Positions 1,972-27,778 of a stretch of DNA of 45,793 bases are shown piece by piece. Position numbers and translations under genes: made by a program. Source of the stretch: a bacterium. Lineage in GTDB: Bacteria > Chloroflexota > Dormibacteria > Aeolococcales > Aeolococcaceae. The first letter of the stretch is position 1. Every line of letters starts with the position of its first letter. The stretch lies in NCBI GenBank assembly GCA_021847925.1, contig JAJZNI010000069.1, positions 1 to 45,793 on the forward strand. Direction: 5' to 3'. The notes below the pieces were generated by a model. The model was not told the origin of the DNA and did not search any database. It saw only the letters and a program-made list of their open reading frames with translations.

Positions 1972-2092
1972 ATTGATCGTTTCGCTCCGCCGCAGTGTGG
2001 CCTCCCGGTGGGATGCTGGAATCATGGATGCTGGTTTCTGGAGCACCACCTCGTCCCGGGGCGGACGACGGCGGCTTTTGGCCTGACCTTAC

Positions 2093-2126
2093 GGGTGGGC
2101 GCGACGCTCAGGCGCCGCGCCCACCC
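2093..2126 (+). promoter_or_regulatory. Perfect 11-bp inverted repeat (GGGTGGGCGCG / CGCGCCCACCC, 12-nt loop) upstream of glpK
   Basis: Read directly from sequence; ends 33 nt before the glpK ATG. Confidence 0.6.
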
Positions 2127-2159
2127 ACTCATCATGCCCGGAGTCGAGGAGCACGCGTC

Positions 2160-3683
2160 ATGGCTGAGGCTCGGTATGTCGGGGCGCTGGATCAGGGAAC
2201 CACCAGCACCCGCTTCTTGATCTTCGACCACGCCGGGACGGTGGTCGGCATGGCTCAGAGGGAGCACGAGCAGATCTACCCCAGGCCCGGCTGGGTCGAG
2301 CACGATCCCCAGGAGATCTGGGCCCGGTGCAAGCAGGTGATCGACGGCGCCTTGGACCAGGCGGGGCTCCAGCCCCCCGACCTCATCGCGGTCGGGGTCA
2401 CCACCCAGCGTGAGACCGCCGTTGTCTGGGACCGCAGAACCGGGCAGCCCGTGCACAACGCCATCGTCTGGCAGGACACGAGAACCGACCAGCTCTGCAG
2501 CGAGCTGGCGCGGGTTGGAGGTCAGGACCGCTTCCGGGCCAGGGTGGGGCTGCCCCTGGCCACCTATTTCTCGGGCCCCAAGATCTCCTGGCTCCTCGAG
2601 AACGTCTGTGGCCTGCGCGACCGCGCCGAGGCGGGGGAGCTAGCCTTCGGCACCATTGACAGCTGGTGCATCTGGAATCTCACCGGCGGGGTCCACGTCA
2701 CCGACGTGACCAACGCCAGCCGCACCATGCTGATGAACCTCAACAGCTTGGACTGGGACCCGGAGATCCTGGCCACCCTCGGCATCCCCCGGGCCATGCT
2801 CCCCGAGATCCGGTCCTCCTCGGAGATCTATGGCGTCTGCGGGGCTCCTCTGGCGGGTGTGCCGGTGGCCGGCGACCTGGGCGATCAGCAGGCGGCACTG
2901 TTCGGCCAGACGTGCTTCTCCGCCGGCGAGGCCAAGAACACTTATGGAACCGGCAACTTCATGCTGATCAACACCGGCACCGCGCCCGTACCCTCGGAAA
3001 GCGGCCTCCTGACCACCCTGGGCTACAAGATCGGCGCGCAGCCCGCCGTGTATTGTCTCGAAGGCTCGATCGCCATCACGGGGGCGCTGGTCCAGTGGCT
3101 GCGCGACAACCTGGGGATCATCAGCAGCTCGGCCGAGGTGGAGGGGCTCGCAGCGACGGTCGAGGACAACGGGGGCTGCTACTTCGTGCCCGCCTTCTCG
3201 GGGCTCTTCGCCCCCTACTGGAGGAGCGATGCGCGGGGGGTGATCGCCGGCCTCACCCGCTACGTGACCAAGGGCCATCTCGCCCGCGCCGTGCTGGAGG
3301 CCACCGCCTGGCAGACCCGCGAGGTCCTTGACGCCATGAGGGCCGACTCCGGGGTGGCCCTCTCGTCGCTGCGCGTGGACGGCGGGATGGTCTTCAACAA
3401 CCTGCTCATGCAGATGCAGGCCGACGTGCTCGGAATGCCGGTGATCCGTCCCAGGGTGGCGGAGACCACCGCGCTCGGCGCAGCCTATGCTGCGGGCCTG
3501 TCGACCAACTTCTGGACCGGCCTCGAGGAGCTGCGAGCCAACTGGCAGGTGGATCGGTGTTGGGAGCCAGCGGCGGACAGAGCGGATGTCGAGGCCGAAT
3601 TCAGGCTCTGGAAGAAGGCGGTCACCCGTACCTTCGACTGGGTGGATTGCCCCCCAGGGGGGCGGACCGGTCCCGATGCCTGA
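2160..3683 (+). CDS. glpK: Glycerol kinase
   Basis: [26 protein letters not shown]..., [29 protein letters not shown] kinase motifs. Confidence 0.95.
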
Positions 3684-5376
3684 TGCTCTCGACTGCGAGC
3701 TGCTGGTGATCGGGGGCGGGTCCACGGGAGCCGGGGTGGCCTGGGACGCCGCACTGCGCGGCCTCCAGGTCATCCTGGTCGACCGGAGCGACCTCGCCAC
3801 CGGGACCACCGGCCGCTTCCATGGGCTGCTCCACTCGGGAGCTCGCTACGTTGTCCGGGACCCGGCCGGAGCACGGGACTGCGCTCGGGAGAACGCTGTC
3901 CTCCGCCGCGTCGCCGCGCCGGCCCTCGAGGACACGGGCGGTCTCTTCGTCACGACCCCGCTCGACGACGTGGAGTACTCCAACCACTTCCTGGCGGCGT
4001 GTCCGGCGGCGGAGGTGCCTGTGGAGGAGATCCCGCCGGCTGAGGCGCTGCGCCGCGAGCCCCGGCTCAACCCCGCCATCCGCCGCGCCTTCAGCGTGCG
4101 TGACGCAAGCGTGGACAGCTGGAAGTTGGTCTGGGCCTGCGCCGGCGGGGCTCGCGAGCTGGGGGCCCGCATCCTCCCTTACCACCCCGTTCTCGCGCTG
4201 CTCCGGGACGGCAGCCGGGTGACCGGGGCTCGCCTGCGCGACCTGCGCGGGGACCGCGAGCTCGAGGTCCGCGCTGAGTGCGTGGTCAACGCCGGCGGGG
4301 CGTGGGGCGGACGCATCGCCGGTCTTGCCGGGTTGCACGTCGGCGTGCGCCCGGGCAAGGGGGTGATGGTGGCCGTAAACCACCGGCTCGCGGGCGCCGT
4401 GGTCAATCGCTGCCATCTCACGGGGGACGGCGATATCGTGGTGCCCAGCCACAGCGTCAGTATCATCGGCACGACGGACACCGCGGTGGAGGATCCCGAC
4501 GATGTGGAGCCCACCGCCGCCGAGGTCGCGGCCATGCTCGATGCGGGTGACGCCCTGCTCCCCGGCCTGAGCCGCGCTCGCGCGCTCCGGGTGTGGGGGG
4601 GGGCGCGCCCGCTCCTTCCCCGGGCGGAGGGCCCCGGGATCGACCATCGCGCCATCTCCCGCTCGCACAGCGTGATCCGGCACTCTCAGGTGGACGGCAT
4701 GGCGGGGCTCGTGACCATCGTCGGCGGCAAGCTCACCACCTTCCGGCTCATGGCCGAGGACACCGTGGATGCCGTCTGCCAGGAGCTGGGCACCGACCGC
4801 CGCTGCGCGACTGCCGAGACGCCCATTCCGGTAGACGGGCCGCATGGCCACCACCGGCTGTCCCACCGCGCAGAGGCGTTCGAGCACCGCCTGGAGCGGA
4901 GTGATGGGACTGATCCCCTGGTCTGCGAGTGCGAGATGGTGCCTCGCTCCGAGCTCCTGGCCGCCGCCCGGACACACCCGGGATCCGACCTCGACGACCT
5001 GCGCCGCCTCCTGCGGATCGGCATGGGCCCGTGCCAGGGCGGCTTCTGCACCTTCCGGACCGCGGCCATCCTGCATGAGGCCGGGCTGCTGGACGCCACC
5101 CGCGCCGTGTCCGTGCTGCTGAGCTTCGTCGAGGAGCGTTGGAAGGGGCAGCGCTCCGTGCTCTGGGGGCAGCAGCTGCGCCAGTCCCACCTCGACGAGT
5201 GGATCTTTCAAGGAAGCCTCGACCTCGAACATCTTCCGGAGACCTCCGCGCCCCAGTCGACCCGCGCTCAGGAACCGCTCCCTAACGGCCGAGATCCGCT
5301 GGGCCGACCGCTCGGGACGGCGACGGCGCAGGACGACCGGATCGCCAGTCCCCCAGGGCCGGAGCCGGAGCCGTGA
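3676..5376 (+). CDS. glpA: Glycerol-3-phosphate dehydrogenase, FAD subunit A (with BFD-like Cys cluster)
   Basis: [40 protein letters not shown]-terminal CECEMVPR...[10 protein letters not shown]. Confidence 0.9.
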
Positions 5377-6569
5377 AGGTGGATGCCCTGGTGATCGCGA
5401 CGGGGGAGGGGTCCCTGCCCCTCGCCACCGGGACGATCGACGTCCTCGGCTACTCGCCGGGCCTGGTCTCCAGCCCGTTCGAGGCGTTGCCCACGTTCCT
5501 TCATGCCAATCCCGAACATCCCTACCGGATCGCGGGCATCGACGGGGTGGAGCACGCTCTGGCCTGGCTGGCCGAAACGGCCGAATCCCTCGGATACCAG
5601 GGCGGCCTCGTCCGCAACCGGTGGGTCCCGACGGTGCTCGGCGGCCTCCGCCCCACATCGATGCTTCCCCGCAGCATGGTCTCCGCCGACCTCCATGCCA
5701 ACGCCCACGCCGAGATCGTCGTCGCCGGCATCCGCGGCTACCGTGACTTCCATCCCGCGCTGCTCGCCGCCAACCTCTCCCTGGCCACACCGCCATCGGG
5801 GGGCCGGACTATTCGCGCACGGGCCACCGAGGTCGAATGGCCGGGCAACTCTAGCGACCTGGTCCCCTTCCGGCTGGCACGGCGCCTCGAGGAGGCGGCG
5901 GTGCGGCGCGAGATCGCCAACCGCATCCGCCCCAGCTTGGGGGGGGCGACGGCGGTCGCGATGCCCGCCCTGCTCGGACGGGAGCGGTGGGACGAGGTCC
6001 ACCGCGATCTGGAGGGGCGCCTCGAGCGCGACGTCTTCGAGGTGCCCGGCCTGCCGCCGTCCCTGCCGGGGCTGCGCCTCTCAGACTGCCTTCGTCGGGC
6101 GCTTCGCCGTGCGGGGGGCCGTCTCCTTCTTGGGAGCAGCGCTGTGAGCGCCACCCGCGTCGACGGCGAGGTTCGTTCGGTGACTGTGACCCAGGCAGCG
6201 CGCCACACTGAGGTGAAGGCCGGCTTTGTCATCCTCGCCACTGGCGGGTTCGCCGCCGGCGGCATCGCGCGCGACCGGGATGGAACTCTGCGCGAGCCGT
6301 TGCTCGGTCTTCCGGTGCACGGTCCTCAGGTGGGCGCCGAACCGACTTCTCCGCGCTTCCTTGGCTCCCAGCCCCTGGACCGGGCGGGGGTCCGCACCGA
6401 TCCTACCGGCCGGCCTCTCGACACGGCCGGCGAACCCTGGGCCCGTAATCTGTACGCTGCGGGGGCCGTTCTCGCCGGCGCCGTGCCGTGGCGAGAGAAG
6501 TCGGGCGAGGGGGTGGCTCTCGCCACCGCGTGGGCGGTTACCGGCGCCATCCTAGGAGGGGCGCAGTGA
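5373..6569 (+). CDS. glpB: Anaerobic glycerol-3-phosphate dehydrogenase subunit B
   Basis: Position between glpA and glpC; flavoprotein-like VIATGEGSLPLATGTIDVLGY...; GTG start overlaps glpA stop. Confidence 0.85.
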   Translation: MKVDALVIATGEGSLPLATGTIDVLGYSPGLVSSPFEALPTFLHANPEHPYRIAGIDGVEHALAWLAETAESLGYQGGLVRNRWVPTVLGGLRPTSMLPRSMVSADLHANAHAEIVVAGIRGYRDFHPALLAANLSLATPPSGGRTIRARATEVEWPGNSSDLVPFRLARRLEEAAVRREIANRIRPSLGGATAVAMPALLGRERWDEVHRDLEGRLERDVFEVPGLPPSLPGLRLSDCLRRALRRAGGRLLLGSSAVSATRVDGEVRSVTVTQAARHTEVKAGFVILATGGFAAGGIARDRDGTLREPLLGLPVHGPQVGAEPTSPRFLGSQPLDRAGVRTDPTGRPLDTAGEPWARNLYAAGAVLAGAVPWREKSGEGVALATAWAVTGAILGGAQ

Positions 6570-7837
6570 GCGCACGGGTAGACCCGATGGGGTCGTCGGA
6601 CCACCTCGAGAGTGGGGCGGCGCTGGTGCGCAGTTCCCTCGACGCCTGCATAAAGTGCACCATCTGCGAGAGCGCCTGCCCCTTCGCGGTGGCCACTCCA
6701 CTCTTCCCGGGCCCCAAGACCGTGGGCCCGCAGGCGGAGCGCTTTCGCAGCGGACTCAGCTCCGCCGACTGGTCCGTCGACTACTGCTCGGGGTGCGGGA
6801 TCTGCAGCCGCGTCTGCCCCCAGGGGGTGCGCATCGCTGAGATCAACGCGCAGGCCCGCGCCCGGCTCAAGGAAAGGACCGGGATCCCGCTCCGTGACCA
6901 GCTGTTGGCGCGCCCCGACGTCATGGGGCGGCTGGGACAGCCGGTGGCGCCGCTCTTCAACCGGGCCGTCGAGACGCCGGCCGTGCGCACGATCATGGAG
7001 CGGACCCTGGGCATCCACAGGAGCGCTGCCATCCCTCGGGTGTCGCCGCGGACCTTCCAAAGTTGGTCCCGGCGGCACCCACCCGCGCCCGGTCCGGACC
7101 GTGTGGTCTACTTTCACGGCTGCAGCGTCAACCACTTCGAACCACGGTTGGGGCGCATGGTGGTCGCCGTCCTTGAGCATCAGGGTCTGCGTGTTGACGT
7201 GCCTGAGCAGGGGTGCTGCGGGCTCCCGCTGCAGTCCAACGGCAACTTCCCGGCTGCACGCCGCTACCTCACCCGTCTTGCGCACAGGCTGGCGGCGGCG
7301 GCGGACGTCTCCGTGATCGCCTCGTCCACCAGCTGCGGGCTGATGCTCAAGCGGGAGGGGCGCGAGATACTGGGTGTGGACGATCCGGCCCTGGCCGACG
7401 TCTCGCGGAGGACCTGGGACATCTTCGAGTTTCTCCGCGACCTGCACGAGAGGGGGTTGCTGCGCACCGATCTCCAGCCCGTCGATCTCTGCGTCGCCTA
7501 CCACGCGCCGTGCCAGCAGCAGAATCACCTGATGGGCAAGCCGGCGATCGACATCCTCTCGCTCGTCCCCGGACTGCGAATCATCGAGCTGGAGCGCGAC
7601 TGCTGCGGGGTGGCGGGAACCTATGGGCTGAAGCGGGAGAAGCACGATATCTCGATGAGCGTGGGCGAGGATCTCTTCCATGACATCCGGGGGCTCGAAC
7701 CCGACGCGGTGCTGTGCGACAGCGAGACCTGCCGCTGGCAGATCGCCAAAGCCACGGGGTACCCGGTCGTCCACCCCGTGGAGATCCTCCATCGCGCCTA
7801 TTCCGGCGGCGGACGTCCGCCGCGAGCGCGCGGCTGA
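6566..7837 (+). CDS. glpC: Anaerobic glycerol-3-phosphate dehydrogenase subunit C (Fe-S / CCG domains)
   Basis: CIKCTICESACPF, CSGCGICSRVCPQG, two CCG motifs; GTG start overlaps glpB TGA. Confidence 0.9.
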   Translation: MSARVDPMGSSDHLESGAALVRSSLDACIKCTICESACPFAVATPLFPGPKTVGPQAERFRSGLSSADWSVDYCSGCGICSRVCPQGVRIAEINAQARARLKERTGIPLRDQLLARPDVMGRLGQPVAPLFNRAVETPAVRTIMERTLGIHRSAAIPRVSPRTFQSWSRRHPPAPGPDRVVYFHGCSVNHFEPRLGRMVVAVLEHQGLRVDVPEQGCCGLPLQSNGNFPAARRYLTRLAHRLAAAADVSVIASSTSCGLMLKREGREILGVDDPALADVSRRTWDIFEFLRDLHERGLLRTDLQPVDLCVAYHAPCQQQNHLMGKPAIDILSLVPGLRIIELERDCCGVAGTYGLKREKHDISMSVGEDLFHDIRGLEPDAVLCDSETCRWQIAKATGYPVVHPVEILHRAYSGGGRPPRARG

Positions 7838-8151: not shown

Positions 8152-10602
8152 TCAGCCCAGGGCGACCTCCACGACCACGCGCGTGACACCCGGCCCGGGC
8201 AGCGGCACCACGTCGCCCTCCACAGCGCGGCCGTCCACGGTCAGCGCCACGCCGGCGCCGGGCCCTCGCCGCCGGACCCTGATCTCATACCAGGCTCCCC
8301 GGAAGCGCCGCCGCGCCGTGAAACCGTCCCAACTCCCCGGTATCGCGGGCGCCACCCGCAGCCCCTGGTGGGTGGGGCGGATGCCCAGGATCCACTGGGT
8401 GGCGGCGACGTAGGTCCAGGCGGCGGCGCCGGTGAGCCAGGCGTTGCGGGCCAGGCCGTGCTGCGGGTGCGCGGGCCCCAGGATGTTCTGGGAGTGCACG
8501 TAGGGCTCGGTCGCCGCCAGCTCCACGTCGGCGCGGGCCAGGGGGAGGAGCTGCCGGTAGGAGCGGTGGGCGCGGTCGCCCTCGCCCATCTGGGCGGCGG
8601 CGACGATGGACCAGGCTGCGGCATGGCAGAAGATGCCGCCGTTCTCCTTGGCCCCCGGGGGGTAGGTGGAGGTGCCGTTGACCCGGGGGTCGCCGCCGTC
8701 GTACGGGGGCCAGAGCAGGCTCAGCCCGTGGGCGCTGCCGAGGAGCTCGTCGGCCGCGTCCATCGCCCGGCGGGCGCGCTCGGGAGGCGCCACCTCGCCG
8801 ATCACCGACCAGCTCTGGGGGATGAGGTTGATCCGGTGGCGCTCCTCGGAGGCGACGCCGATGGGGCGTCCGGCGTCGTCGAAGGCGCGCGCGTACCACG
8901 CCCCGTCCCAGCCCGAGGCGTTGACCGCCCCGGCGATCTCGGCGTGGAGCGTGCGAAACCGCGCCTCGTCCTCGCCCCGGCCGAGATGCCCGGCGAGGTC
9001 GGCCAGGTCCAGCAGGGCGCGGCAGAGCTGCATCCCGCACCAGACGGACTCGGCCAGGCCCGAGCCGTGGTCCACGTTGAGGGTGTCGTCCCAGTCGGCG
9101 TAGCCGGGGCGGGGAAGCCCGTGCGGGCCGCGATGCGTGAGCGTGAAGTCGATCGCCGCCATCATGTGGCCCCAGACGGTGTCGTCGGGATCGCGGGCGG
9201 CGGCACCCGCCGCGTCCGGCGCCACCCCCCCGCCCGTCTGGTACGGCACCGAGCGGTGGAGGAGGTCGCCGTCCCCGGTCTCGCGGAGCAGCGCGCAGGT
9301 GGCGATGACGAGCCAGAGGTGGTCGTCGGCGAACCACGCCGGCCACTCGGGGTGCTCGGCGGCGATCCCCAGAGCGCCCTCCCCGGTGAGCGGGAAGAGC
9401 TGGTGCCAGGTGTGCCCGTCCGGGAACTGCAGCCCCCAGAGCTGGAGGAGGCGGTCCGCGCACCAGCCGGGGGCGGCGTGGGCCACCCCCAGGGTGTCCT
9501 GGGCGGAGTCCCGCGTGCCCAGCCCCCGCCCCAGGCCGGTCTCGTAGGCGGAGACGAAGCGCGACCAGTAGAGGGTGGTGCGGCACTGCACCTGGTTCCA
9601 GACATTGAGACTGGCATCCATCAGCGGGTCGGGGGTCGCGACGGTGAAGCTGCCGAGGAACTCGGACCAATCGGCGCGCAGCGCCTCGAACGCCGCCTCC
9701 ACGCGCGCGGGGTCGGACCAGCGATCGATGACGCCGGGGATCGCGTCGGGCGAGTCGGTGATCCCCAGCATGTAGACGATCTGCGCTCGCTCTCCCGGGG
9801 CGAGCTCGAGGTCGTGACAGAGCGAGCCGATCCCGTTGCCCCGGGGGGCGTCCGCGTTGCCCGGCTCGCCGCGGAGCACGGCCTCGGGGGCCTCGAGCGT
9901 CCCGCCGCGACCCGTGAAGAGCTCGCGATCGCAGTCGTGGCCGGCGCTGCGCCGGTCGGAGGCGAAGAGGGTCGTGGTGGGGCGGAAGCGGGTGGCGGCG
10001 CAGATGGCGTCCAGGTCGGGCCGGTACCGCGTGGCCAGGACCTGCGCGCTCCAGTCCAGGTTGTGCAGGTCGTTCATGGCATCGGGGAAGCTCAGCTCCG
10101 CGTAGCTGAAGGTGCGCAGGCGAAGCGGCCGCGGGGTGGTGTTGGTGAGGCGCAGCCGCCACAGCTCGATGGGACAGGGGTCGGCGCGCTGGCCCGGGGG
10201 CACGAAGTAGAGGGTCTCGGCGCGGACGCCGGAGCGCTCGGTGGTGATGCGGGTGTACCCGGCGCCGTGGCGGCACTCGTAGCGGTCCAGGGGGGCGCGC
10301 ACCGGCTGCCAGGTCGCTGCCCACGTCTCCCCCGTGTCCTGGAGGCGGAGGTACACGTAGCGGCCGGGCTGGTCGGCGGGGATGGCGTTGTACCGGTAGC
10401 GTGTGACCCGCCGGTTGCGCGGGTCGCGGTCGAAGGAGAAGCCGCCGCCGGTGTTGGAGACGATCCCCCCGTAGGCCCCCTCGCCGAGGTAGTTGATCCA
10501 CGGGGTCGGGGTGTCCGGGCGGGTGATGACGAACTCGCCGGTCTCCGCGTCGAGGTACCCGTAGGCGCTCTCCGCCAGCCGCGCTCCCACCTCGCACCGC
10601 AC
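8152..10602 (-). CDS. GH94 glycoside phosphorylase, cellobiose phosphorylase-like
   Basis: GYLDAETGEFVITRPDTPTPWINYLGE...; YADWDDTLN catalytic region; ~816 aa. Confidence 0.88.
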   Translation of the reverse strand: MRCEVGARLAESAYGYLDAETGEFVITRPDTPTPWINYLGEGAYGGIVSNTGGGFSFDRDPRNRRVTRYRYNAIPADQPGRYVYLRLQDTGETWAATWQPVRAPLDRYECRHGAGYTRITTERSGVRAETLYFVPPGQRADPCPIELWRLRLTNTTPRPLRLRTFSYAELSFPDAMNDLHNLDWSAQVLATRYRPDLDAICAATRFRPTTTLFASDRRSAGHDCDRELFTGRGGTLEAPEAVLRGEPGNADAPRGNGIGSLCHDLELAPGERAQIVYMLGITDSPDAIPGVIDRWSDPARVEAAFEALRADWSEFLGSFTVATPDPLMDASLNVWNQVQCRTTLYWSRFVSAYETGLGRGLGTRDSAQDTLGVAHAAPGWCADRLLQLWGLQFPDGHTWHQLFPLTGEGALGIAAEHPEWPAWFADDHLWLVIATCALLRETGDGDLLHRSVPYQTGGGVAPDAAGAAARDPDDTVWGHMMAAIDFTLTHRGPHGLPRPGYADWDDTLNVDHGSGLAESVWCGMQLCRALLDLADLAGHLGRGEDEARFRTLHAEIAGAVNASGWDGAWYARAFDDAGRPIGVASEERHRINLIPQSWSVIGEVAPPERARRAMDAADELLGSAHGLSLLWPPYDGGDPRVNGTSTYPPGAKENGGIFCHAAAWSIVAAAQMGEGDRAHRSYRQLLPLARADVELAATEPYVHSQNILGPAHPQHGLARNAWLTGAAAWTYVAATQWILGIRPTHQGLRVAPAIPGSWDGFTARRRFRGAWYEIRVRRRGPGAGVALTVDGRAVEGDVVPLPGPGVTRVVVEVALG

Positions 10603-10702
10603 CTCCTGGCCACCGGGACGGCGGCGACCTTAGCACGGCCCTCGCGGCCCCTGCGTCACAATCCCCGAGTTCGAGCGACCGCGACCAGGGAGGCATTCGC
10701 GC

Positions 10703-12130
10703 GTGCCAGGTGACCACACCCGCCGCTTTCCCGAGGGCTTCCTCTTCGGGACCAAGACCTCCGCCTACCAGATCGAGGGATCGGTGGACGCCGGGGGCCG
10801 GGGGGCCTCGATCTGGGACACCTTCAGCCACACGCCGGGCGCCACCCGCAACGGGGACACCGGGGACGTCGCCTCCGACCACTACCGGCGGCTCGAGGAG
10901 GACCTCGACCTGATCGCCGCCCTGGGGGCGCCCGCCTACTGCTTCTCCGTCGCCTGGCCGCGGGTGCAGCCGGACGGCGCAGGCGCGGTCAGCCAGCGCG
11001 GCCTGGACTTCTACCGCCGTCTCGTCGACGGTCTCCGCGAGCGCGGGGTCGCCCCGGTGGTCACGCTGTACCACTGGGACCTGCCGCAGCCACTCCAGGA
11101 CGCCGGGGGCTGGACCGCGCGGGACACCGCCGGGCGCTTCGCCGACTACGCGGCCGCGGTGGGCGCGGCGCTGGGCGACCGGGTGGGCCTGTGGGTCACC
11201 CACAACGAGCCCTGGTGCGCCTCCTGGGTGGGCCACGCCAAGGGGGAGCACGCGCCCGGGCTGCAGGACCTCGGCGCGGCGGCGGCCGCCACCCATCACC
11301 TGCTCCTCTCGCACGGGCTCGGGGTGCGCGCGCTGCGCGCCGCGGTCCCCGGGGCGCAGGTCGGCATCGGTCTCAACCTGCAGCCGATCCGGGCGGCCAG
11401 CGACCACGAGGAGGACCTGGCGGCCGCCTCCCGCGTCGACGGCAACCTCAACCGGCTCTTCCTCGACCCGGTGCTGCGCGGCGAGTACCCCGAGGACGTG
11501 CTGGCGCAGCACGCCGACGATCGCCCCGGCTTCGCCGTCGCCCGGGACGGTGACCTGGAAGTGATCTCCGAGCCGCTGGACTTCCTCGGCATCAACTACT
11601 ACGCGCCCAAGACCGTCTGCGCCCCCTCGCGGATGGACGCGGCCCGGTGCGCCGGCCTCTGGGTCCCGCGGAGCCCCGCCACGGACCCCCTGGGCGCCGC
11701 GCTGCGCGCCGTGGACGTCCACCGCCCCGGCGTCGAGCTCACACCCATGGGGTGGGAGGTGGAGCCGGCCGGTCTCACCGAGCTGCTCGTGCGCGTGCAC
11801 CGCGACTACGGCCCCCGCCCGCTCCACATCCTGGAGAACGGGCGGGCCGCGGACGACTACGTCGACCCGCGCGGCGAGGTCCACGACGCGGCGCGGATCG
11901 AGTACCTGCGCGGCCACCTCGGGGCCGTCCTCGACGCGATCGAGCGGGGCGTGGACGTCCGCGGCTACTTCGTCTGGAGCCTGCTCGACAACTTCGAGTG
12001 GGCGCACGGGTTCGGGATGCGCTTCGGCCTCACCTGGGTCGACTACCCGAGCGGCACCCGGGTCCCCAAGGCGAGCTTCGCCTGGTACCGGGACGTGGTC
12101 AGGGCGGGAGCGCTGCCCGGGCACGGGTAG
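10703..12130 (+). CDS. GH1 beta-glucosidase
   Basis: FPEGFLFGTKTSAYQIEG, TLYHWDLPQPLQDAGGW, THNEPW acid/base, ILENG nucleophile region. Confidence 0.92.
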   Translation: MPGDHTRRFPEGFLFGTKTSAYQIEGSVDAGGRGASIWDTFSHTPGATRNGDTGDVASDHYRRLEEDLDLIAALGAPAYCFSVAWPRVQPDGAGAVSQRGLDFYRRLVDGLRERGVAPVVTLYHWDLPQPLQDAGGWTARDTAGRFADYAAAVGAALGDRVGLWVTHNEPWCASWVGHAKGEHAPGLQDLGAAAAATHHLLLSHGLGVRALRAAVPGAQVGIGLNLQPIRAASDHEEDLAAASRVDGNLNRLFLDPVLRGEYPEDVLAQHADDRPGFAVARDGDLEVISEPLDFLGINYYAPKTVCAPSRMDAARCAGLWVPRSPATDPLGAALRAVDVHRPGVELTPMGWEVEPAGLTELLVRVHRDYGPRPLHILENGRAADDYVDPRGEVHDAARIEYLRGHLGAVLDAIERGVDVRGYFVWSLLDNFEWAHGFGMRFGLTWVDYPSGTRVPKASFAWYRDVVRAGALPGHG

Positions 12131-18254: not shown

Positions 18255-19646
18255 ATGACCGGTCAGGCCACGGGGGCGCGCGCTGAGGTCGCGCGATCCG
18301 GAGGGGGCGGCAGCCCCCGGCCGGGGCGCGCCGTCCTGCCCGGCCGGCTGGCGGCCACGTCCGCATGCGCCGCCTTCATCCTGGTGAGCGCCGCGGCGGC
18401 GCTCCTCCTCGACACCAGCCGCTCCGACCTCGACACCTTCTTCTGGCCGTCCGCCGAGATCGCCGCCCACGGCCATCCCCTCCTCGTCTACTCGGTGCAC
18501 GAGGGGATCTACCCGGACGCCAACGGGCCCCTCTCCCTGGTCCCCCTCAGCCTCGTGGCGGCGGCCGCCAACGCTCTCGGGGTGGAGGGGACGATGCGCG
18601 TCCGCGACGCCCTCACCCAGGGGGTCTTCGCGGTCTTCGTCCTGCTCATGGCGCGCGAGGCGGTCCTGGCGGTGGAGGCGGGACGGGGGCGACCGGTGCG
18701 CCGCCTGCTCACCGGCGCCGCCCTTCTGGCGCTGCCGCCGCTCTGGGTGACCACCATCGGCTTCGGGCACGTGGAGGAGCCGCTGGAGCTGTGGCTGCTG
18801 CTCCTGGGCGTGCGCCTGCTCGGCCGCGGATCCACCGTGCGGGCGGGGATCTGCCTGGGACTCGCCCTGCTGAGCCGGAGCGTCGCGGCCATGGCGCTCC
18901 TCACCCTGCTCCTGGCCCTGGCGGCCGACCGCCGCTGGACGGCGGCGGCCGCCGTCGCCGCGGCCGCCGCGGTCACCGTGGCCAGCGGGCTGCTGCCCTT
19001 CTGGGTGGCCGACCGTCCCGGCCTGGTGCGCTCGCTGATCACCTTTCGGGGCGCCCTCCCCATCAGCGGGGGATCGCTCTGGTACGCGTTCCGGGGCGCG
19101 GCGTGGGCGGGGGTCGTCCGCGGCCAGGACACGTGGATCTTCACCGGCGCGGCCGTGGCCCTGGCCACCCTCGGGCTCGCGCTCGATCGGCGCCGGGCTC
19201 GACCACGCCCCATCGGCCCGCCCGCGATCCCCCGCGGGGAACGGCGCGGCATCGATCCTCCCGGCGTCTTCGGCCTGCTGGCGGTGACGGGCCTCTGCGT
19301 GCCGATGCTCGCCAAGACCACCTGGCCCTATTACCTGCTCGACCCCTGCGTCTTCGCCACCATCTGGTGGTTGGGCCGCCCCGCGCGGGTCTGGAGCTGG
19401 CGAGCCGGCCCGCCGCTCACGCTCGCGGTGGGCGGGGGAGTGCTCGGCGGCGTCGAGCAGAGCCTGCCGCTGGCCTCCGCCCCGACGGCCGCGGCGGGCG
19501 TGGCGGCATCGGCGGTGATGGCGCTCGCCGTCTGCGCCATCCTCCTTGATCGGGCCCGGCCGCAGCAGCCGCCGGCGGCGGGGGACGCGTGGGACGCGGG
19601 CGGGGGTCTCCGCGGGGGATGGAGGGCGACGAGGCGGAGCGCCTAG
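18255..19646 (+). CDS. Polytopic membrane protein, possible GT-C/GT87-like glycosyltransferase
   Basis: Multiple TM helices; DLDTFFWPSAEIAAHGHPLLVYSVHEGIYPDANGPLSLVPL loop. Confidence 0.55.
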   Translation: MTGQATGARAEVARSGGGGSPRPGRAVLPGRLAATSACAAFILVSAAAALLLDTSRSDLDTFFWPSAEIAAHGHPLLVYSVHEGIYPDANGPLSLVPLSLVAAAANALGVEGTMRVRDALTQGVFAVFVLLMAREAVLAVEAGRGRPVRRLLTGAALLALPPLWVTTIGFGHVEEPLELWLLLLGVRLLGRGSTVRAGICLGLALLSRSVAAMALLTLLLALAADRRWTAAAAVAAAAAVTVASGLLPFWVADRPGLVRSLITFRGALPISGGSLWYAFRGAAWAGVVRGQDTWIFTGAAVALATLGLALDRRRARPRPIGPPAIPRGERRGIDPPGVFGLLAVTGLCVPMLAKTTWPYYLLDPCVFATIWWLGRPARVWSWRAGPPLTLAVGGGVLGGVEQSLPLASAPTAAAGVAASAVMALAVCAILLDRARPQQPPAAGDAWDAGGGLRGGWRATRRSA

Positions 19647-22003: not shown

Positions 22004-24160
22004 TCAGCTCCCCGGGGAGCCGACCACCCTGTACAGCCTCCAGCCGAGGTCCGAGGATCCGAGGCTCGGATCGCTGAAATCGTGCACCAGGGTGGCGAAC
22101 CCGGCGCCGGTCGCGTAGAGGGACGGGTAGGCACGGTTCAGCGCGTCGGCGCTGCCCACCCCCCCCCGCCGGGGGACCAGCATGTAGCGCACACCCGCCG
22201 CCCGGGGGTCGGCCAGGTCGGACTCGAAGTCGTAGTCGGGGGTGATCACGAACTGGTGCGGGTTGTCGGAGTTGAGGACGATGGCGAAGCCGGCGTCGGC
22301 ATCGAGGAGGACGGAGCCCGCGGCCAGGTGCATGCGGTCCAGATAGCGGGCCACCGCCACCTCCTCGGTGATCCGGAAGGTCTCGGGAGCATGGGCGTAC
22401 AGGGGTCTGAGGTCGGCGGCCTCCTCGGGCGCGATGGAGGGGTTGGCCATGGCCAGGGCGCTGACCGGGAGCGCCGGCGCGAGGAGGACCAGCGCGGTGA
22501 GCGCCGCAGCGCCCGACTTCAGCGGCCCCACCCAGCACCGCCGGGGCCGGGCGGGGCCCGTCCCGCCGCCGTGGCCGCGCTCGGGGGCGGGATCGCTCCA
22601 CACGGCGCCGAGCAGGAGTCCCACCATCGGTACGAGCTCGATGAAGTAGCGGAACCAGGGCAGGATCATCCCGGTCACCCGGGTCAGGAACATGAACGCG
22701 AGCACGGAGCAGAACACCGAGGCGATCGCCGGTATCGCCGCGTCGCGACGGAGCACGCCCACGATGGCGGCGAGAACGAGGACCACGAGCCAGAGTGGCT
22801 CCATGTGCTCCATCTGGCCGAGGGCCTGGACCGCGCCGGTGAGGAGTGGCGGATGGGTCGCCTGCTCCATCGACACCTGGGAGCTGTTGCCGTACACCGA
22901 GCTGAACTGGGCGAAGGGGGCCCCGACCAGGATCCAGCTCGCGGCGGCCCACCCCGTGAAGACCAGGGCGAAGGGGCTCGCCACCGCGACGGCATCGGCG
23001 AGCGCGTTCCACGCCCGGCGCCGCCACGTCTCGCCACCGCGCCAGAGGGTGAGCCCGACGACGAAGAGGGTGACCCCCAGGGCCGCCGCGGCGGTCTCGT
23101 AGCGGGTCGTGTAGCCGATCGCGAGCCCCACGCCGGAGAGGACGAGCCACCTCAGCTCGCCCTCGCGCGCCCAGCGGGCCAGGTGGCGGGCGGTCATCAG
23201 CATGGCGAAGAGCAGGGAGGCCTCGCTCATGCCGTCCCATCCGTAGAACATCACCATGGGGTCGAGGGCGAACAGCAGCGTGATCAGCACCCGCGGCACG
23301 CGCCGCGTGCCGAGCTCGGCGAGCGCCCGGTTGAGCTGGTACGCGGCCCCGGCCATGAAGGCGGCCGATTGGATGTCTCCGGCGAAGCCGCGGGTGGCCA
23401 GCGCGGGCCACACGTCCTTGAACAGGAGCAGCGGGATCTGCACCAGGGACGGCAGGGGATTCCACACGAACCCGACCGCCGCGAGGTGGGGGTCCCGGCT
23501 GAAGAGGACGTAGTACGCGTTGGCCGTCCGGCTGATGCCGTCGCCGGCGAGCAGGCCCACCTTCAGCACCAGCCAGGCGGCGAGACCGAGGTAGAGCAGG
23601 AAGCTCAGGGTGAGAACCAGCCCGCCCTCGCCGGCGAGCCTCCGGAGCGGAAGGACGGTGGACCCCGACCCGCTCCAGGCGCGCCGTGACCCGACCACGC
23701 AGTTCCAGCCCGTGGCCGAGACCACGCCGGCGACGTTGGCGAGCAGGTAGGCGCCGTCGCCGGCCAGGGCCGTGATCGCCGTGAGGACGGACAGGGAGAT
23801 CGCCAGGCCGCCGAGGGCGACCCCGTTGTAGCGAACGGCTCGCCGCCACCGCGGCAGCGCGCGCGCGGCGTCCCGGAAGGTCCAGGCGTCGTTGAGGGCG
23901 AAGTTGCAGAGGATCGCGGCCTCCGTGGCCGCAGCAGCCGCGGGCAGCAGGGGAGCGTGCAGGAGCCCGTGGAGGACGAGGAGGAGGACGCTGTTGACCG
24001 CGAAGCCCGTCACACCCACCGCGGCGAAGCGGGGGATGCGGCGCACGTGCGGCGATCGCCCGGCCGCCTCCGCGGCCGGCGCACCGGCCGCGCCGCCGGG
24101 CTCGGGCGGGCGCTGTCCGAGCCGCGGGAGCCGCGCCGCGGCGCCCTGCCAGGACTGCAC
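22004..24160 (-). CDS. GtrA-like domain fused to GT-C (GT39/PMT-like) membrane glycosyltransferase
   Basis: N-term RFAAVGVTGFAVNSVLLLVLHGLL...CNFALNDAWTFRDA (GtrA-like); C-term many TM with YYVLFSRDPHLAAVGFVWNPLPSL, YTTRYET. Confidence 0.75.
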   Translation of the reverse strand: MQSWQGAAARLPRLGQRPPEPGGAAGAPAAEAAGRSPHVRRIPRFAAVGVTGFAVNSVLLLVLHGLLHAPLLPAAAAATEAAILCNFALNDAWTFRDAARALPRWRRAVRYNGVALGGLAISLSVLTAITALAGDGAYLLANVAGVVSATGWNCVVGSRRAWSGSGSTVLPLRRLAGEGGLVLTLSFLLYLGLAAWLVLKVGLLAGDGISRTANAYYVLFSRDPHLAAVGFVWNPLPSLVQIPLLLFKDVWPALATRGFAGDIQSAAFMAGAAYQLNRALAELGTRRVPRVLITLLFALDPMVMFYGWDGMSEASLLFAMLMTARHLARWAREGELRWLVLSGVGLAIGYTTRYETAAAALGVTLFVVGLTLWRGGETWRRRAWNALADAVAVASPFALVFTGWAAASWILVGAPFAQFSSVYGNSSQVSMEQATHPPLLTGAVQALGQMEHMEPLWLVVLVLAAIVGVLRRDAAIPAIASVFCSVLAFMFLTRVTGMILPWFRYFIELVPMVGLLLGAVWSDPAPERGHGGGTGPARPRRCWVGPLKSGAAALTALVLLAPALPVSALAMANPSIAPEEAADLRPLYAHAPETFRITEEVAVARYLDRMHLAAGSVLLDADAGFAIVLNSDNPHQFVITPDYDFESDLADPRAAGVRYMLVPRRGGVGSADALNRAYPSLYATGAGFATLVHDFSDPSLGSSDLGWRLYRVVGSPGS

Positions 24161-24161
24161 C

Positions 24162-25634
24162 TCAGCCCGCTCCCGCCAGGTGCTCGAGACCGTGCACGGT
24201 CTTCTCCCAGAACCAGGGGGAGATGGTCAGCTGGGCCACGGCGCGCACCGCCGCCACCGACATCCACACCCAGTAGGCGGGCCAGAGAAGGACGGCGCTG
24301 AGCAGCTCCGGATGGCCGCTGGACCTCACCGACACCGCGATCCGGTACAGGGCCAGGAAGTTGCCGAGGACGAGCGAGAGGACGGCCGGGTAGTAGAGCC
24401 AGGCGGGGTACAGCTCGCGCACGGCCGTCCCGCCCACGAGCCACACGGCGGTGAGGAGCCAGAACAGGGGGTTGAGGAGGGACAGCAGCGGGGTTCCCGC
24501 CACCACCGCGGCCAGGCCGGCCACGCCCCTGCCCCCCAGCTCTCGCCACACGCGCCGCGGCTCGCGCATGTGCACGAGCCAGGTCTGGATGTACCCCTTG
24601 TACCAGCGCGAGCGCTGCTTGACCCAGTTCACAGGGTCGCTGTTCGCCTCCTCCAGGGTGACCGAGCCGAGAACCTCCGTGCGGAAGCCCATGCGGTGCA
24701 GGCGGATGCCGAGGTCGGCGTCCTCGGTGACGTTGTGCGGGTCCCACCCCCCGATGCGCTCCAGCGCGTCCCGGCGCACGTGCATCGAGGTGCCGCCCAG
24801 CGGCAGAGGCGCTCCCAGCTCCGCCATGGCGGGCAGCGCCGTCGCAAACCAGGACGCGTACTCCGCGGCGAAGAGGCGCGTGAGCAGGTTCTGGTCCTGG
24901 TTGTGGTAGTAGAGCTGGGCCTGCAGGCATGCCACCGACTCGTCGGCGCGTGCCAGGGCGACCGCCGCGCGACGCAGCTGCAGCGGCTCCGGCATGTCCT
25001 CGGCGTCGTAGACGGTCACCAGCTCGCCGGCGGAGAGGGCCAGGCCGTAGTTCAGCGCCTTGGGCTTGGTCCGCGGCGAGGCGACCGGGACGCGCACGAT
25101 CTCCACCTCGGGCCCGGGCTGCGCCGCCAGCGCGGCCGCTATGGTCTCCGTGTCGTCCGCCTCCAGCAGGAGCTTCACCTCCAGGCGGTCGCGCGGGTAG
25201 TCCAGGGCGGCCACCGAGCGGAGCGTGCGGGCGATCACGGCGGCTTCGTGGTAGGCGGCGATCATCACCGTGTAGCGGGGCAGGTCACGATCCGCCACCG
25301 CGAACGCCTCCTCGTCGCCGACGCACAGCACGCGCGGGTTGCGCAGGGTCGCCCGAAGGAGCAGCGCGTTGTAGCCCATCACGAAGAGGTAGGCGGCCGT
25401 GAAGACCGCGATGAGGGCGATCGCCGTGCCCGCGGGCGCGACGGCGGCGCCCAGGGTGGCCAGCCCCACGAGACCCAGGAGAACGCGGCGCTGCCAGGCG
25501 ACCAGCACGGTGTGCGCCGACATCTCGGGATGGTCGCGGCGCAGCCCGCCCACGCTGCGGTTGAGCGGGGACGGCTCGATGGCCGCCAGCAGGCCGGACC
25601 CGGGGCCGCCCTGGGTGCGATGGAGGCGGATCAC
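24162..25634 (-). CDS. Membrane-bound family 2 glycosyltransferase (BcsA-like)
   Basis: YTVMIAAYHE, EADDTETI, VYDAEDMPEP, TEDADLGIRL, QRSRWYKG; GTG start overlaps exosortase TGA. Confidence 0.9.
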   Translation of the reverse strand: MIRLHRTQGGPGSGLLAAIEPSPLNRSVGGLRRDHPEMSAHTVLVAWQRRVLLGLVGLATLGAAVAPAGTAIALIAVFTAAYLFVMGYNALLLRATLRNPRVLCVGDEEAFAVADRDLPRYTVMIAAYHEAAVIARTLRSVAALDYPRDRLEVKLLLEADDTETIAAALAAQPGPEVEIVRVPVASPRTKPKALNYGLALSAGELVTVYDAEDMPEPLQLRRAAVALARADESVACLQAQLYYHNQDQNLLTRLFAAEYASWFATALPAMAELGAPLPLGGTSMHVRRDALERIGGWDPHNVTEDADLGIRLHRMGFRTEVLGSVTLEEANSDPVNWVKQRSRWYKGYIQTWLVHMREPRRVWRELGGRGVAGLAAVVAGTPLLSLLNPLFWLLTAVWLVGGTAVRELYPAWLYYPAVLSLVLGNFLALYRIAVSVRSSGHPELLSAVLLWPAYWVWMSVAAVRAVAQLTISPWFWEKTVHGLEHLAGAG

Positions 25635-27403
25635 GCCGCCGCCCGCGCCGCCGCGGCTCCCGTGCTGCTCACCACCTGCCGCGCGAAGGCGAGGAGCGAC
25701 CTCTCCGAGGACGTCGCGTGCGCGGCGGTGGTCTGCTGCAGGACGATGCGCTGGTAGGTGTGGCCGGAGGCGGTGGCCACGGGCCATTCCCAGTACACCG
25801 AGGTCCACCGGGCGCCGGAGGGCAGCGTGTAGACGACCTCGGTCGCGGTCAGCCCGCCTCCCAGGCTCACCGACGCCTGGCCGGCCTGCGTGTAGTCGTG
25901 AAAGTGGTAGCAGTCCTGGACGGTGTAGGTCCCCAGGCTGCCGAGGTGAGGGGTGGTCACCACGTCGAGGAACACCGGGGCACCGAGGGCGGCGTCGGCC
26001 GCGGCCCCGGCCCCGGCGCGCGGCGTGTAGACGTAGCGGACCCAGCTCGACCCGCTGCCGAAGTAGAGACGCCCCCACGCGTAGGTCGCGAACCTGCTCG
26101 CCGACCATCCGGGGACGGACGCCTGGGCAAGGGTGAGGGCCTCGACGCGGGGCGGCCCCAGCCCCTGCGCGAGCAGGGAGAAGCGGCTCATCTGCGTGTC
26201 CGACACCGCGATCACCGATCCGGCCGCGGCCAGGATCATCAGGGCCACGGCGGCGTGCGGCACCGGGGTCCGCCGCGCCGCCCCGGGCGCATCCGCCCGC
26301 CCGGGCGCGGGGGGCGCCGGGCGTCGCGGCCGCCCGGCGCCGGCGAAGCCCAGCCCGAAGCGCCGCATGAGGACCATCATCAGGGACACCCCGCAGGCGA
26401 AGAAGACAAGGCCCACGAAGGGGTGGAGGACGTTCAGCGCAAAACCCTCACCCCATCGCTGCGCACTCGCGAAGATGAGCAGGATGCGCACCACGTCGAG
26501 GCTCCAGATGAGCACCATGCCCAGGCCGAGCCACGCCGCCCTGAGCAGGCGCGGCCCCCTCACCAGCGCGACGGCGGCCGCTCCGACCAGGAGAAACCCG
26601 AGGACGCTGTTGACACCTCCGCACGCCGAGGCGACGCTCAGCACGAACCTCTGCCCGGCGTGGGTGACCTGGAAGAGGGAGCCGTCGCCGTAGCTCAGCG
26701 GGACCGCCAGGGGGACGGCGCGCAGCACGAGGTGGACCGCTCCCAGGGTGAGGTTGGTCACGGCATCCAGCCACCCGTTGAAGACGAGGGTGTACGGCGG
26801 GGGCCAGGCCAGCACCAGGAAGGCCACGGGGACGCGCAGCCTCCAGAGCATGCGCACGCCGAACGCGAGCGCGATGGCCCCGGCCACGAAGAGGGGCAGC
26901 GAGAGCAGGTCGATCCGCCAGAGCCAGAAGAACGTCGACATGGTCGCGGGGCCGACGACCACGACGGCCACCGCCGTCCCCACGAGCGGGAGGCCCACGA
27001 TGTAGTCGAGGTACCGATCGTGGATGTCGCGCTGCCGGTCGGGCATGTGCAGAAGCGCGGCGACGAGCAGCAGCGAGATCATCGGCACCAGGCCGAGATA
27101 GGCGAGCGGCGTCTGCGTGCCGATGCTCCGCAGCAGCGTGCCCAGCGAATACTGGTAGGCGACCACGACGAGGACGGCGACCAGCGTCGCCCGGAACAGG
27201 AGGGGCCGGCGGCGGCCACCCCCGACGCCACGGAGCAGCGCCCCCTCCACGCCCGCGACGCTCGCGCGGACCGGCCGGGCCGCGCTCCGCAGGACGCGGT
27301 CCGCAAGGCCCGTCGCCGGCCTCCCGGATCCATCCCCGACCGGGCCCGCGAGACCGGCGTCCCGCCGCAGCTGCGCCCAGAGGGGAGGGGAGGGCACCGC
27401 CAC
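25631..27403 (-). CDS. Exosortase/archaeosortase family protein with EpsI-like C-terminal domain
   Basis: Polytopic; putative catalytic residues Cys261 (SACGGVNSVLGF; codon 26621-26623), Arg306 (DVVRILLI; 26486-26488), His327 (NVLHPFVG; 26423-26425). Confidence 0.87.
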   Translation of the reverse strand: MAVPSPPLWAQLRRDAGLAGPVGDGSGRPATGLADRVLRSAARPVRASVAGVEGALLRGVGGGRRRPLLFRATLVAVLVVVAYQYSLGTLLRSIGTQTPLAYLGLVPMISLLLVAALLHMPDRQRDIHDRYLDYIVGLPLVGTAVAVVVVGPATMSTFFWLWRIDLLSLPLFVAGAIALAFGVRMLWRLRVPVAFLVLAWPPPYTLVFNGWLDAVTNLTLGAVHLVLRAVPLAVPLSYGDGSLFQVTHAGQRFVLSVASACGGVNSVLGFLLVGAAAVALVRGPRLLRAAWLGLGMVLIWSLDVVRILLIFASAQRWGEGFALNVLHPFVGLVFFACGVSLMMVLMRRFGLGFAGAGRPRRPAPPAPGRADAPGAARRTPVPHAAVALMILAAAGSVIAVSDTQMSRFSLLAQGLGPPRVEALTLAQASVPGWSASRFATYAWGRLYFGSGSSWVRYVYTPRAGAGAAADAALGAPVFLDVVTTPHLGSLGTYTVQDCYHFHDYTQAGQASVSLGGGLTATEVVYTLPSGARWTSVYWEWPVATASGHTYQRIVLQQTTAAHATSSERSLLAFARQVVSSTGAAAARAAA

Positions 27404-27406
27404 GTG

Positions 27407-27694
27407 TCAGCCCTTCTCCTCGGTGGGCCGGGCCGCCTCGGCCCGCCGCCGGCGCGAGCTCAGCGCGAAGGAGCCGCCGACGACCGCCACGCCGACGAGC
27501 GGCAGCCCGATGGCGAGCGGGGCCTCCGGGATCACGGCCGGGGGGTCGACCAGGGTCCGCGCGTGGTGAGGAGCCGGGTCGGGGCTGGTAGCCGACCCGG
27601 CCGCCGAGGACGTGCCGCACGCGGCGAGCGGCACGGCCGCGAGGACGACGAGGAGGGCTCGCTTGCTTCGCTCGTGTCGAGACATCTTCTCCAT
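27407..27694 (-). CDS. Small lipoprotein with PEP-CTERM-like C-terminal tail, candidate exosortase substrate
   Basis: MEKMSRHERSKRALLVVLAAVPLAAC...VIPEAPLAIGLPLVGVAVVGGSFALSSRRRR; stop lies 4 nt before the exosortase start. Confidence 0.75.
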   Translation of the reverse strand: MEKMSRHERSKRALLVVLAAVPLAACGTSSAAGSATSPDPAPHHARTLVDPPAVIPEAPLAIGLPLVGVAVVGGSFALSSRRRRAEAARPTEEKG

Positions 27695-27712: not shown

Positions 27713-27778
27713 CTCGCCACAACCCCCTCGGAGCCCCCAAGACCACCGAACTGTGACCGGACCATAGCACAAAGCGTC

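Follow-up and report, generated by a model that had tools for sequence, protein, structure and literature searches.

The window analyzed here, a stretch of 45,793 nucleotides, is one contig of a 2.44-Mb metagenome-assembled genome (MAG), 87% complete, from an uncultured bacterium (Ca. Dormibacterota), and it carries a cassette of four minus-strand genes that appear to encode a small lipoprotein with a C-terminal sorting tail, an exosortase and two glycosyltransferases (GTs). The named close relatives of this cassette likewise come from Ca. Dormibacterota records. The frames, read directly, lie where a first-pass annotation of the DNA had put them and are as tightly packed as it described, with a 3-nucleotide gap, a 4-nucleotide overlap and a 1-nucleotide gap between successive genes. 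Its proposal that exosortase, CTERM-like substrate and the two GTs belong together is borne out by family matches, adjacency and co-occurrence across related genomes. Below, G-numbers denote the genomes of a class set (n=110), G000 being the window's own, C-numbers denote contigs and L-numbers the loci that were read; for several homologous frames the start is uncertain. The features are as follows.

27743..27769, minus strand: promoter-like element TGNTATNGTCNKGTNACANNNYGGTGG, an extended -10 with a conserved sequence downstream of it, preceding the substrate gene
27407..27694, minus strand: gene 1, small lipoprotein with C-terminal sorting tail, predicted substrate, 95 amino acids
25631..27403, minus strand: gene 2, exosortase, 590 amino acids (PF09721 and TIGR04178)
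24162..25634, minus strand: gene 3, GT2 membrane glycosyltransferase, 490 amino acids, GTG start (PF13641 and motifs)
22004..24160, minus strand: gene 4, GtrA domain fused to a putative GT-C type glycosyltransferase, 718 amino acids (PF04138; PMT_2 below threshold)

The cassette proteins

By its family matches, gene 2 is a member of the exosortase/archaeosortase superfamily, as had been proposed: it scores over the cut-offs of both PF09721 (E=1e-16, 61.5 bits; cut-off 25.7) and TIGR04178 (41.1 bits; cut-off 23), and its motifs C261GG, D-V-V-R306 and H327PFVG follow the C-x-G, N-x-x-R and H-x-x-x-G definition of the exosortases (PMC1569441), with Asp in the window where most homologues have Asn. 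The catalytic residues are thus Cys261, Arg306 and His327, and alignment places Cys, Arg and His in 13 of 13 homologues that bear the core. The protein consists of an N-terminal transmembrane half, the catalytic half and a C-terminal EpsI-like domain (about residues 380-590). It lies below the cut-off of every named Xrt subtype (XrtA, D, G, V, W, X and others), the best scores being 42.3 bits for XrtV (cut-off 313) and 41.9 for XrtA (cut-off 208), and a sequence search of solved structures returned no exosortase relative; an AlphaFold model of the whole protein had a mean predicted local distance difference test (pLDDT) score of 69.

The C-terminal domain had been described as EpsI-like, and its likeness to EpsI/DUF3485 is remote. 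Searches with Pfam and NCBIfam gave no match to PF11984 or TIGR02914 at E<=1 in any of 17 homologues, and neither model has a match in the window's own genome. A profile built from true EpsI proteins of other Chloroflexota, on the other hand, matched the domain with P=0.012, then 0.0016 and then 0.0008 as sequences were added, scoring 31.9 against at most 21.7 in 60 column shuffles and a lower value in the reversed control as well; the alignment was collinear over the whole domain and centred on a CY motif, with an hhalign probability of only 25%. It is therefore plausible that the domain is EpsI-like, and we do not apply the label EpsI itself. The AlphaFold model of this domain had a mean pLDDT of 78.6, and a Foldseek comparison with the PDB gave weak matches only (3lyd, E=6e-4, TM-score 0.36-0.43; also LpqN, Apa, PsbP and START-like folds), which we have not used as evidence of function.

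Gene 3 matches PF13641 (5.5e-34) and has the D, DxD, TED and QxxRW motifs of processive synthases of the BcsA/HAS type, which are kept over 28 homologues, one with a QxxHW change. From these motifs gene 3 probably codes for a processive, self-exporting synthase, so separate polymerase and export genes are not expected beside it; their lack, which the first-pass annotation took for a difference from exopolysaccharide (EPS) loci, had been misread. Gene 4 matches PF04138 (GtrA) with 6.7e-20 over residues 44-156. Because its match to PMT_2 (2.6e-5, 24.9 bits) falls below the cut-off of 26.1, and with no Pfam GT-C family over its cut-off, we infer rather than read off the GT-C assignment. The GtrA fusion was found in the window alone, nearly all homologues aligning from about residue 170 on, and we have dropped it as a defining feature. 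One clade of cassette GT2 proteins carries an N-terminal MshEN domain (PF05157, 1.2e-11; NF053729 over cut-off). Domains of this type, associated with cyclic di-GMP (c-di-GMP), occur in the GT2 genes of L034, L036, L040 and L047, and most of the tail-bearing genomes of the clade have many tails (up to 20).

Gene 1, read directly, combines a lipobox, VPLAAC, and a Ser/Thr/Pro-rich linker with the tail IPEAPLAIGLPLVGVAVVGGSFALSSRRRR, which is made up of IPEAP, a hydrophobic segment and RRRR. It matches, with E=8.9e-15, a tail profile built from 16 seed tails taken from exosortase loci and searched with a cut-off of E<=1e-4; P-E-x-P is invariant in 16 of the 16 seeds, which also have the hydrophobic segment and an Arg cluster, and SE[AS]P variants occur in the C120 tail and in Actinomycetota tails. 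None of the curated CTERM tail models of NCBIfam exceeded its cut-off with the window substrate or with eight other tailed proteins, the only matches being subthreshold ones to LPXTG_anchor, GVDTG_CTERM and invert_tail, but a tripartite tail that co-occurs with an exosortase is what defines PEP-CTERM-type sorting signals, and that combination is present here. The earlier claim of a single dedicated small substrate fails: profile search found three tail-bearing proteins in the window's own genome (window, C51 and C120), and 13 genomes of the class have 1 to 20 tailed proteins each, many of them large, one in G053 being an enzyme of glycoside hydrolase family GH5.

The three own-genome tail genes are united by the element TGNTATNGTCNKGTNACANNNYGGTGG, which, in a search of the 2.44-Mb genome that allowed up to three mismatches, turned up exactly three times, always as a perfect copy, once ahead of each of these genes and nowhere else; a reversed-pattern control gave 0. 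A fourth perfect copy stands ahead of a tailed gene in G013. Since the pattern was written from the three own sites and the one in G013, its presence at tail genes is not independent evidence, but its exclusivity is.

Occurrence of the cassette across the class

Comparison with related genomes brought out what the first-pass annotation had missed, namely, catalytically dead exosortases, a second cassette in the own genome and an Actinomycetota operon, in addition to the common promoter-like element. An exosortase homologue of the window type occurs in 19 of the 110 class genomes, GT2 in exactly those 19 and GT-C in 18 of them and no others, the missing one being G006, which is 74% complete. 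Homologues were accepted at cut-offs that we set (E<=1e-60 for GT2, E<=1e-15 for GT-C, and that given above for tails), and the MAGs are incomplete, so that absences may be missing sequence. Fisher's test gave about 1e-21 for exosortase and GT2 and about 1e-19 for GT-C, values that ignore kinship and are indicative only. In nearly all loci read the three genes lie side by side, usually in the order exosortase, GT2, GT-C, rather than rarely doing so, which would have spoken against the proposed cassette; an exception is G002, in which the GT pair lies a few kilobases off on the other strand. In Actinomycetota MAGs, GT-C, tailed protein, exosortase and GT2 form an overlapping operon, reordered with respect to the window, and in most loci with an intact exosortase a tailed protein is encoded directly upstream of it. 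We therefore reject a chance neighbourhood of these genes on the strength of the class-wide co-occurrence. The second exosortase-GT2-GT-C cassette of the own genome lies at 2608-7423 of L029 (G000:C65), its exosortase being 58% identical to that of the window, and its substrate gene would be off the contig end; the tailed gene of C120 runs off its own contig end, as expected if it stood just upstream of this cassette, and perhaps belongs there, the joining of the two contigs being hypothetical. A UDP-glucose dehydrogenase gene adjoins the C120 substrate gene.

It could be argued that the exosortase is a releasing protease and that the GTs make an unrelated polysaccharide, the genes lying together because both sides serve one surface or biofilm programme and move as a single block. 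The cassettes are indeed patchy and found at differing places, and that of the window lies between rnj and ftsK, which in relatives are separated by only about 0.06 to 2.3 kb and have no cassette between them, so that the window cassette was probably inserted there; furthermore, one exosortase of G021 is encoded apart from the GTs. We consider this explanation rather improbable, however: the perfect co-occurrence at class level suggests a working link, not mere neighbourhood, the EpsI-like domain is fused to the exosortase and is retained with the GTs when the catalytic half has been lost, and in G038 a GT2 is fused to a dead exosortase.

Of the 12 genomes in which an intact exosortase core is visible, 11 have detected tails, as has 1 of the 91 without a detected exosortase (G019, 79% complete); G053, which also has tails, has an exosortase truncated by a contig end. 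In G060, G065, G092 and G093 the catalytic half has been deleted in frame, leaving the N-terminal transmembrane part and the EpsI-like domain in one frame, and G059, which shows the same core deletion up to its contig end, has probably lost it as well. The exosortase of G038 has kept its length, with Cys, Arg and His all replaced, and the dead half is fused in frame behind a second, different GT2 (L046, G038:C229, 1-2280, minus strand); the EpsI-like part, GT2 and GT-C of G038 continue on another contig (L047). The exosortase-derived proteins of L042 and L043 (= L059 and L060; Ca. Dormiibacter inghamiae, JAEKNQ010000040.1, and Ca. D. spiritus) lack any catalytic half and are still encoded in an operon with GT2 and GT-C. 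No tails were detected in the six dead-core genomes at E<=1e-4, whereas GT2 and GT-C are kept in all six, with motifs conserved except for an Arg-to-His change in the GT2 of G059. On the GT2 tree the dead state requires four changes, at least two of which are forced by well-supported branches, indicating that the catalytic half or its residues were lost in at least two lineages and probably in three. Intact versus deleted cores against tails gave P=0.003 (four clear deletions, kinship ignored), and the P values overstate independence because of the kinship of the genomes and because the seed tails of the profile came from exosortase loci. The dependence runs one way, no genome with an intact core lacking GT2 and six genomes with GT2 lacking an intact core. 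This is the most telling result of the analysis: the glycan side does not need sorting, and no sorting was found where the glycan side is missing.

The same observations bear on two further explanations. In the first, the GTs glycosylate the Ser/Thr-rich tailed proteins and the exosortase merely cleaves the tail, freeing or moving a glycoprotein; PMT-type GT-C enzymes do act on proteins in this way, the linker of the window substrate is rich in Ser, Thr and Pro, and substrate and GTs are linked in an operon. This seems unlikely to us given that six genomes in which no tailed proteins were detected keep both GT2 and GT-C and that the GT2 belongs to the type of the processive synthases, and the GH5 and GH113 hydrolases beside several cassettes are a better fit to a free polymer. 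In the second, a tailed membrane protein keeps the GT complex switched off or fixes its position, and cleavage switches or localizes polymer synthesis. The translational overlap of substrate, exosortase and GTs in Actinomycetota would suit such control, as would the c-di-GMP type MshEN domain carried by the GT2 of another clade, which suggests that synthesis is regulated, but up to 20 diverse tailed proteins per genome, the GH5 enzyme of G053 among them, look like cargo and not like regulators, and we regard this explanation as very improbable.

A proposed glycan-coupled sorting system and its known counterparts

We suggest, with our confidence evenly divided, that the cassette is a glycan-coupled exosortase module in which tails are cleaved and the proteins are transferred to a surface glycan or lipid precursor. 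The GT2 would polymerize and extrude a polysaccharide, in keeping with its motifs, and the GT-C protein, here with a GtrA flippase-like domain, would, as a member of its family, add sugars from polyprenyl-phosphate sugar at the outer face of the membrane. The EpsI-like part, retained together with both GTs, may work with them in glycan assembly or hand-over, while the catalytic half, which co-occurs with the tails and is absent along with them, would recognize the PExP-transmembrane-Arg tail, cut it via Cys261 and transfer the protein to the glycan or to its lipid-linked precursor. The window lipoprotein, if processed, would then be attached to membrane lipid at its N terminus and to glycan at its C terminus, and the two further tailed proteins of the genome could be served by the window enzyme or by its 58%-identical paralogue.

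The glycan is proposed as the acceptor because of the one-way dependence, the proteins needing the glycan and not the reverse. Cleavage with transfer is favoured by that dependence together with two precedents: PssA/PssD, which act together with archaeosortase A, have been proposed to provide the lipid that serves as its acceptor (PMC7157517), and in another organism adhesion to the polysaccharide is lost when the exosortase is mutated (PMC12188702). Several points weigh on the other side. Cleavage and ligation are inferred for every enzyme of this group, as are acceptor and sugar here; tails were sought at the one cut-off, with a profile seeded from exosortase loci, in genomes that are related; and there are discordant genomes, namely, G020, an incomplete MAG with an intact core and no detected tail; G019, also incomplete, with tails and no detected exosortase; and G021, which has a second, intact exosortase without neighbouring GTs (L038, G021:C28, 8862-10781, minus strand). 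A small lipoprotein gene without a PExP tail lies just upstream of this GT-free exosortase. More tentatively, the exosortase may be a protein-glycan ligase that takes its acceptor from its own operon and, with EpsI-like help, joins tailed proteins covalently to a synthase-made surface polysaccharide or its lipid-linked precursor, the 95-amino-acid lipoprotein being a minimal two-ended tether; were this true, that protein would act as Braun's lipoprotein does, though in a bacterium that has no outer membrane.

The host is unlikely to have an outer membrane because Omp85 (PF01103) is absent: no match occurs in the own genome, and only 2 of the 110 class genomes have one, neither with a cassette. 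The host thereby departs from the 2006 rule that PEP-CTERM hosts have an outer membrane (PMC1569441). With the exosortase A/EpsH-EpsI system of Gram-negative bacteria (TIGR03109, TIGR02602, TIGR02914; PMC1569441) the window system shares an exosortase with eight transmembrane segments and Cys/Arg/His, an EpsI-like region fused at the C terminus, a P-E-P-like motif with hydrophobic segment and Arg tail, nearby polysaccharide genes and a common DNA element upstream of substrate genes. It differs in that the window protein falls far under the XrtA cut-off, the EpsI part is invisible to Pfam, a compact GT2/GT-C pair replaces the large EPS locus, nothing points to an outer membrane, the upstream element is a different, sigma-70-like one, and dead versions are kept with the GTs. 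XrtG (GT TIGR03111, exosortase TIGR03110) and XrtP (GT NF053846), known to us here from NCBIfam model names, likewise pair an exosortase with a GT2, but the window GT2 scores only 24.0 bits with TIGR03111 and 35.2 with NF053846 (cut-offs, 364 and 520), and the window has a clear tailed substrate, a GT-C partner and an EpsI-like domain. Archaeosortase A with PssA/PssD is alike in being an intramembrane Cys protease with membrane-anchored C-terminal tails and proposed acceptor-supplying enzymes, although the acceptor there is a lipid, whereas the partners in the window are GTs and the acceptor is a putative one. The NfrB/MshEN-GT2 exopolysaccharide synthases (PMC8669469) resemble the one cassette GT2 clade with N-terminal MshEN, but the window GT2 has no MshEN and no outer-membrane partner was seen.

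Exosortases have been known beside polysaccharide genes since 2006, with the recipient of the protein and the role of EpsI left open (PMC1569441), and in the open-access papers that we searched, neither a Dormibacterota exosortase nor an exosortase cassette with GT2 and GT-C is described. In the present system the polysaccharide side comes down to two genes, GT2 and GT-C, that are tightly linked in the genome, independently inactivated exosortases reveal which parts of the cassette depend on which, and PEP-CTERM-like sorting, in which one genome can have as many as 20 tailed proteins, extends to bacteria without sign of an outer membrane. A 20-year-old exosortase question thus becomes testable in a four-gene system whose natural active and dead versions can serve as controls.

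Surroundings of the cassettes

Glycoside hydrolase genes lie beside several cassettes, GH5 at L029 and L030 and GH113 at L030, L045 and L080, and giant secreted PQQ/DUF1349 proteins are encoded beside those of L031, L042 and L079; the second own-genome cassette adjoins its GH5 gene and a gene for a DUF1349 repeat protein. Besides that of the window, the loci read show the TGNTATNGTCNKGTNACANNNYGGTGG-type element at tailed-protein genes as follows.

L079, 2845-2871, plus strand: TGNTATNGTCNKGTNACANNNYGGTGG-type element
L080, 831-857, minus strand: TGNTATNGTCNKGTNACANNNYGGTGG-type element
L030, about 5105: TGNTATNGTCNKGTNACANNNYGGTGG-type element

Within the window, no Rfam families or tRNAs were found. 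A GT87 family membrane glycosyltransferase gene lies on the opposite strand (18255-19646), two genes from the cassette; at 8152-12130, genes for a GH94 phosphorylase and a GH1 glucosidase stand back to back and point to the use of beta-glucan or cellodextrin; and at 1995-7837, an FGGY kinase gene followed by genes for two FAD-dependent oxidoreductases and a CCG/4Fe-4S protein resembles a glpK-glpABC glycerol-use set.

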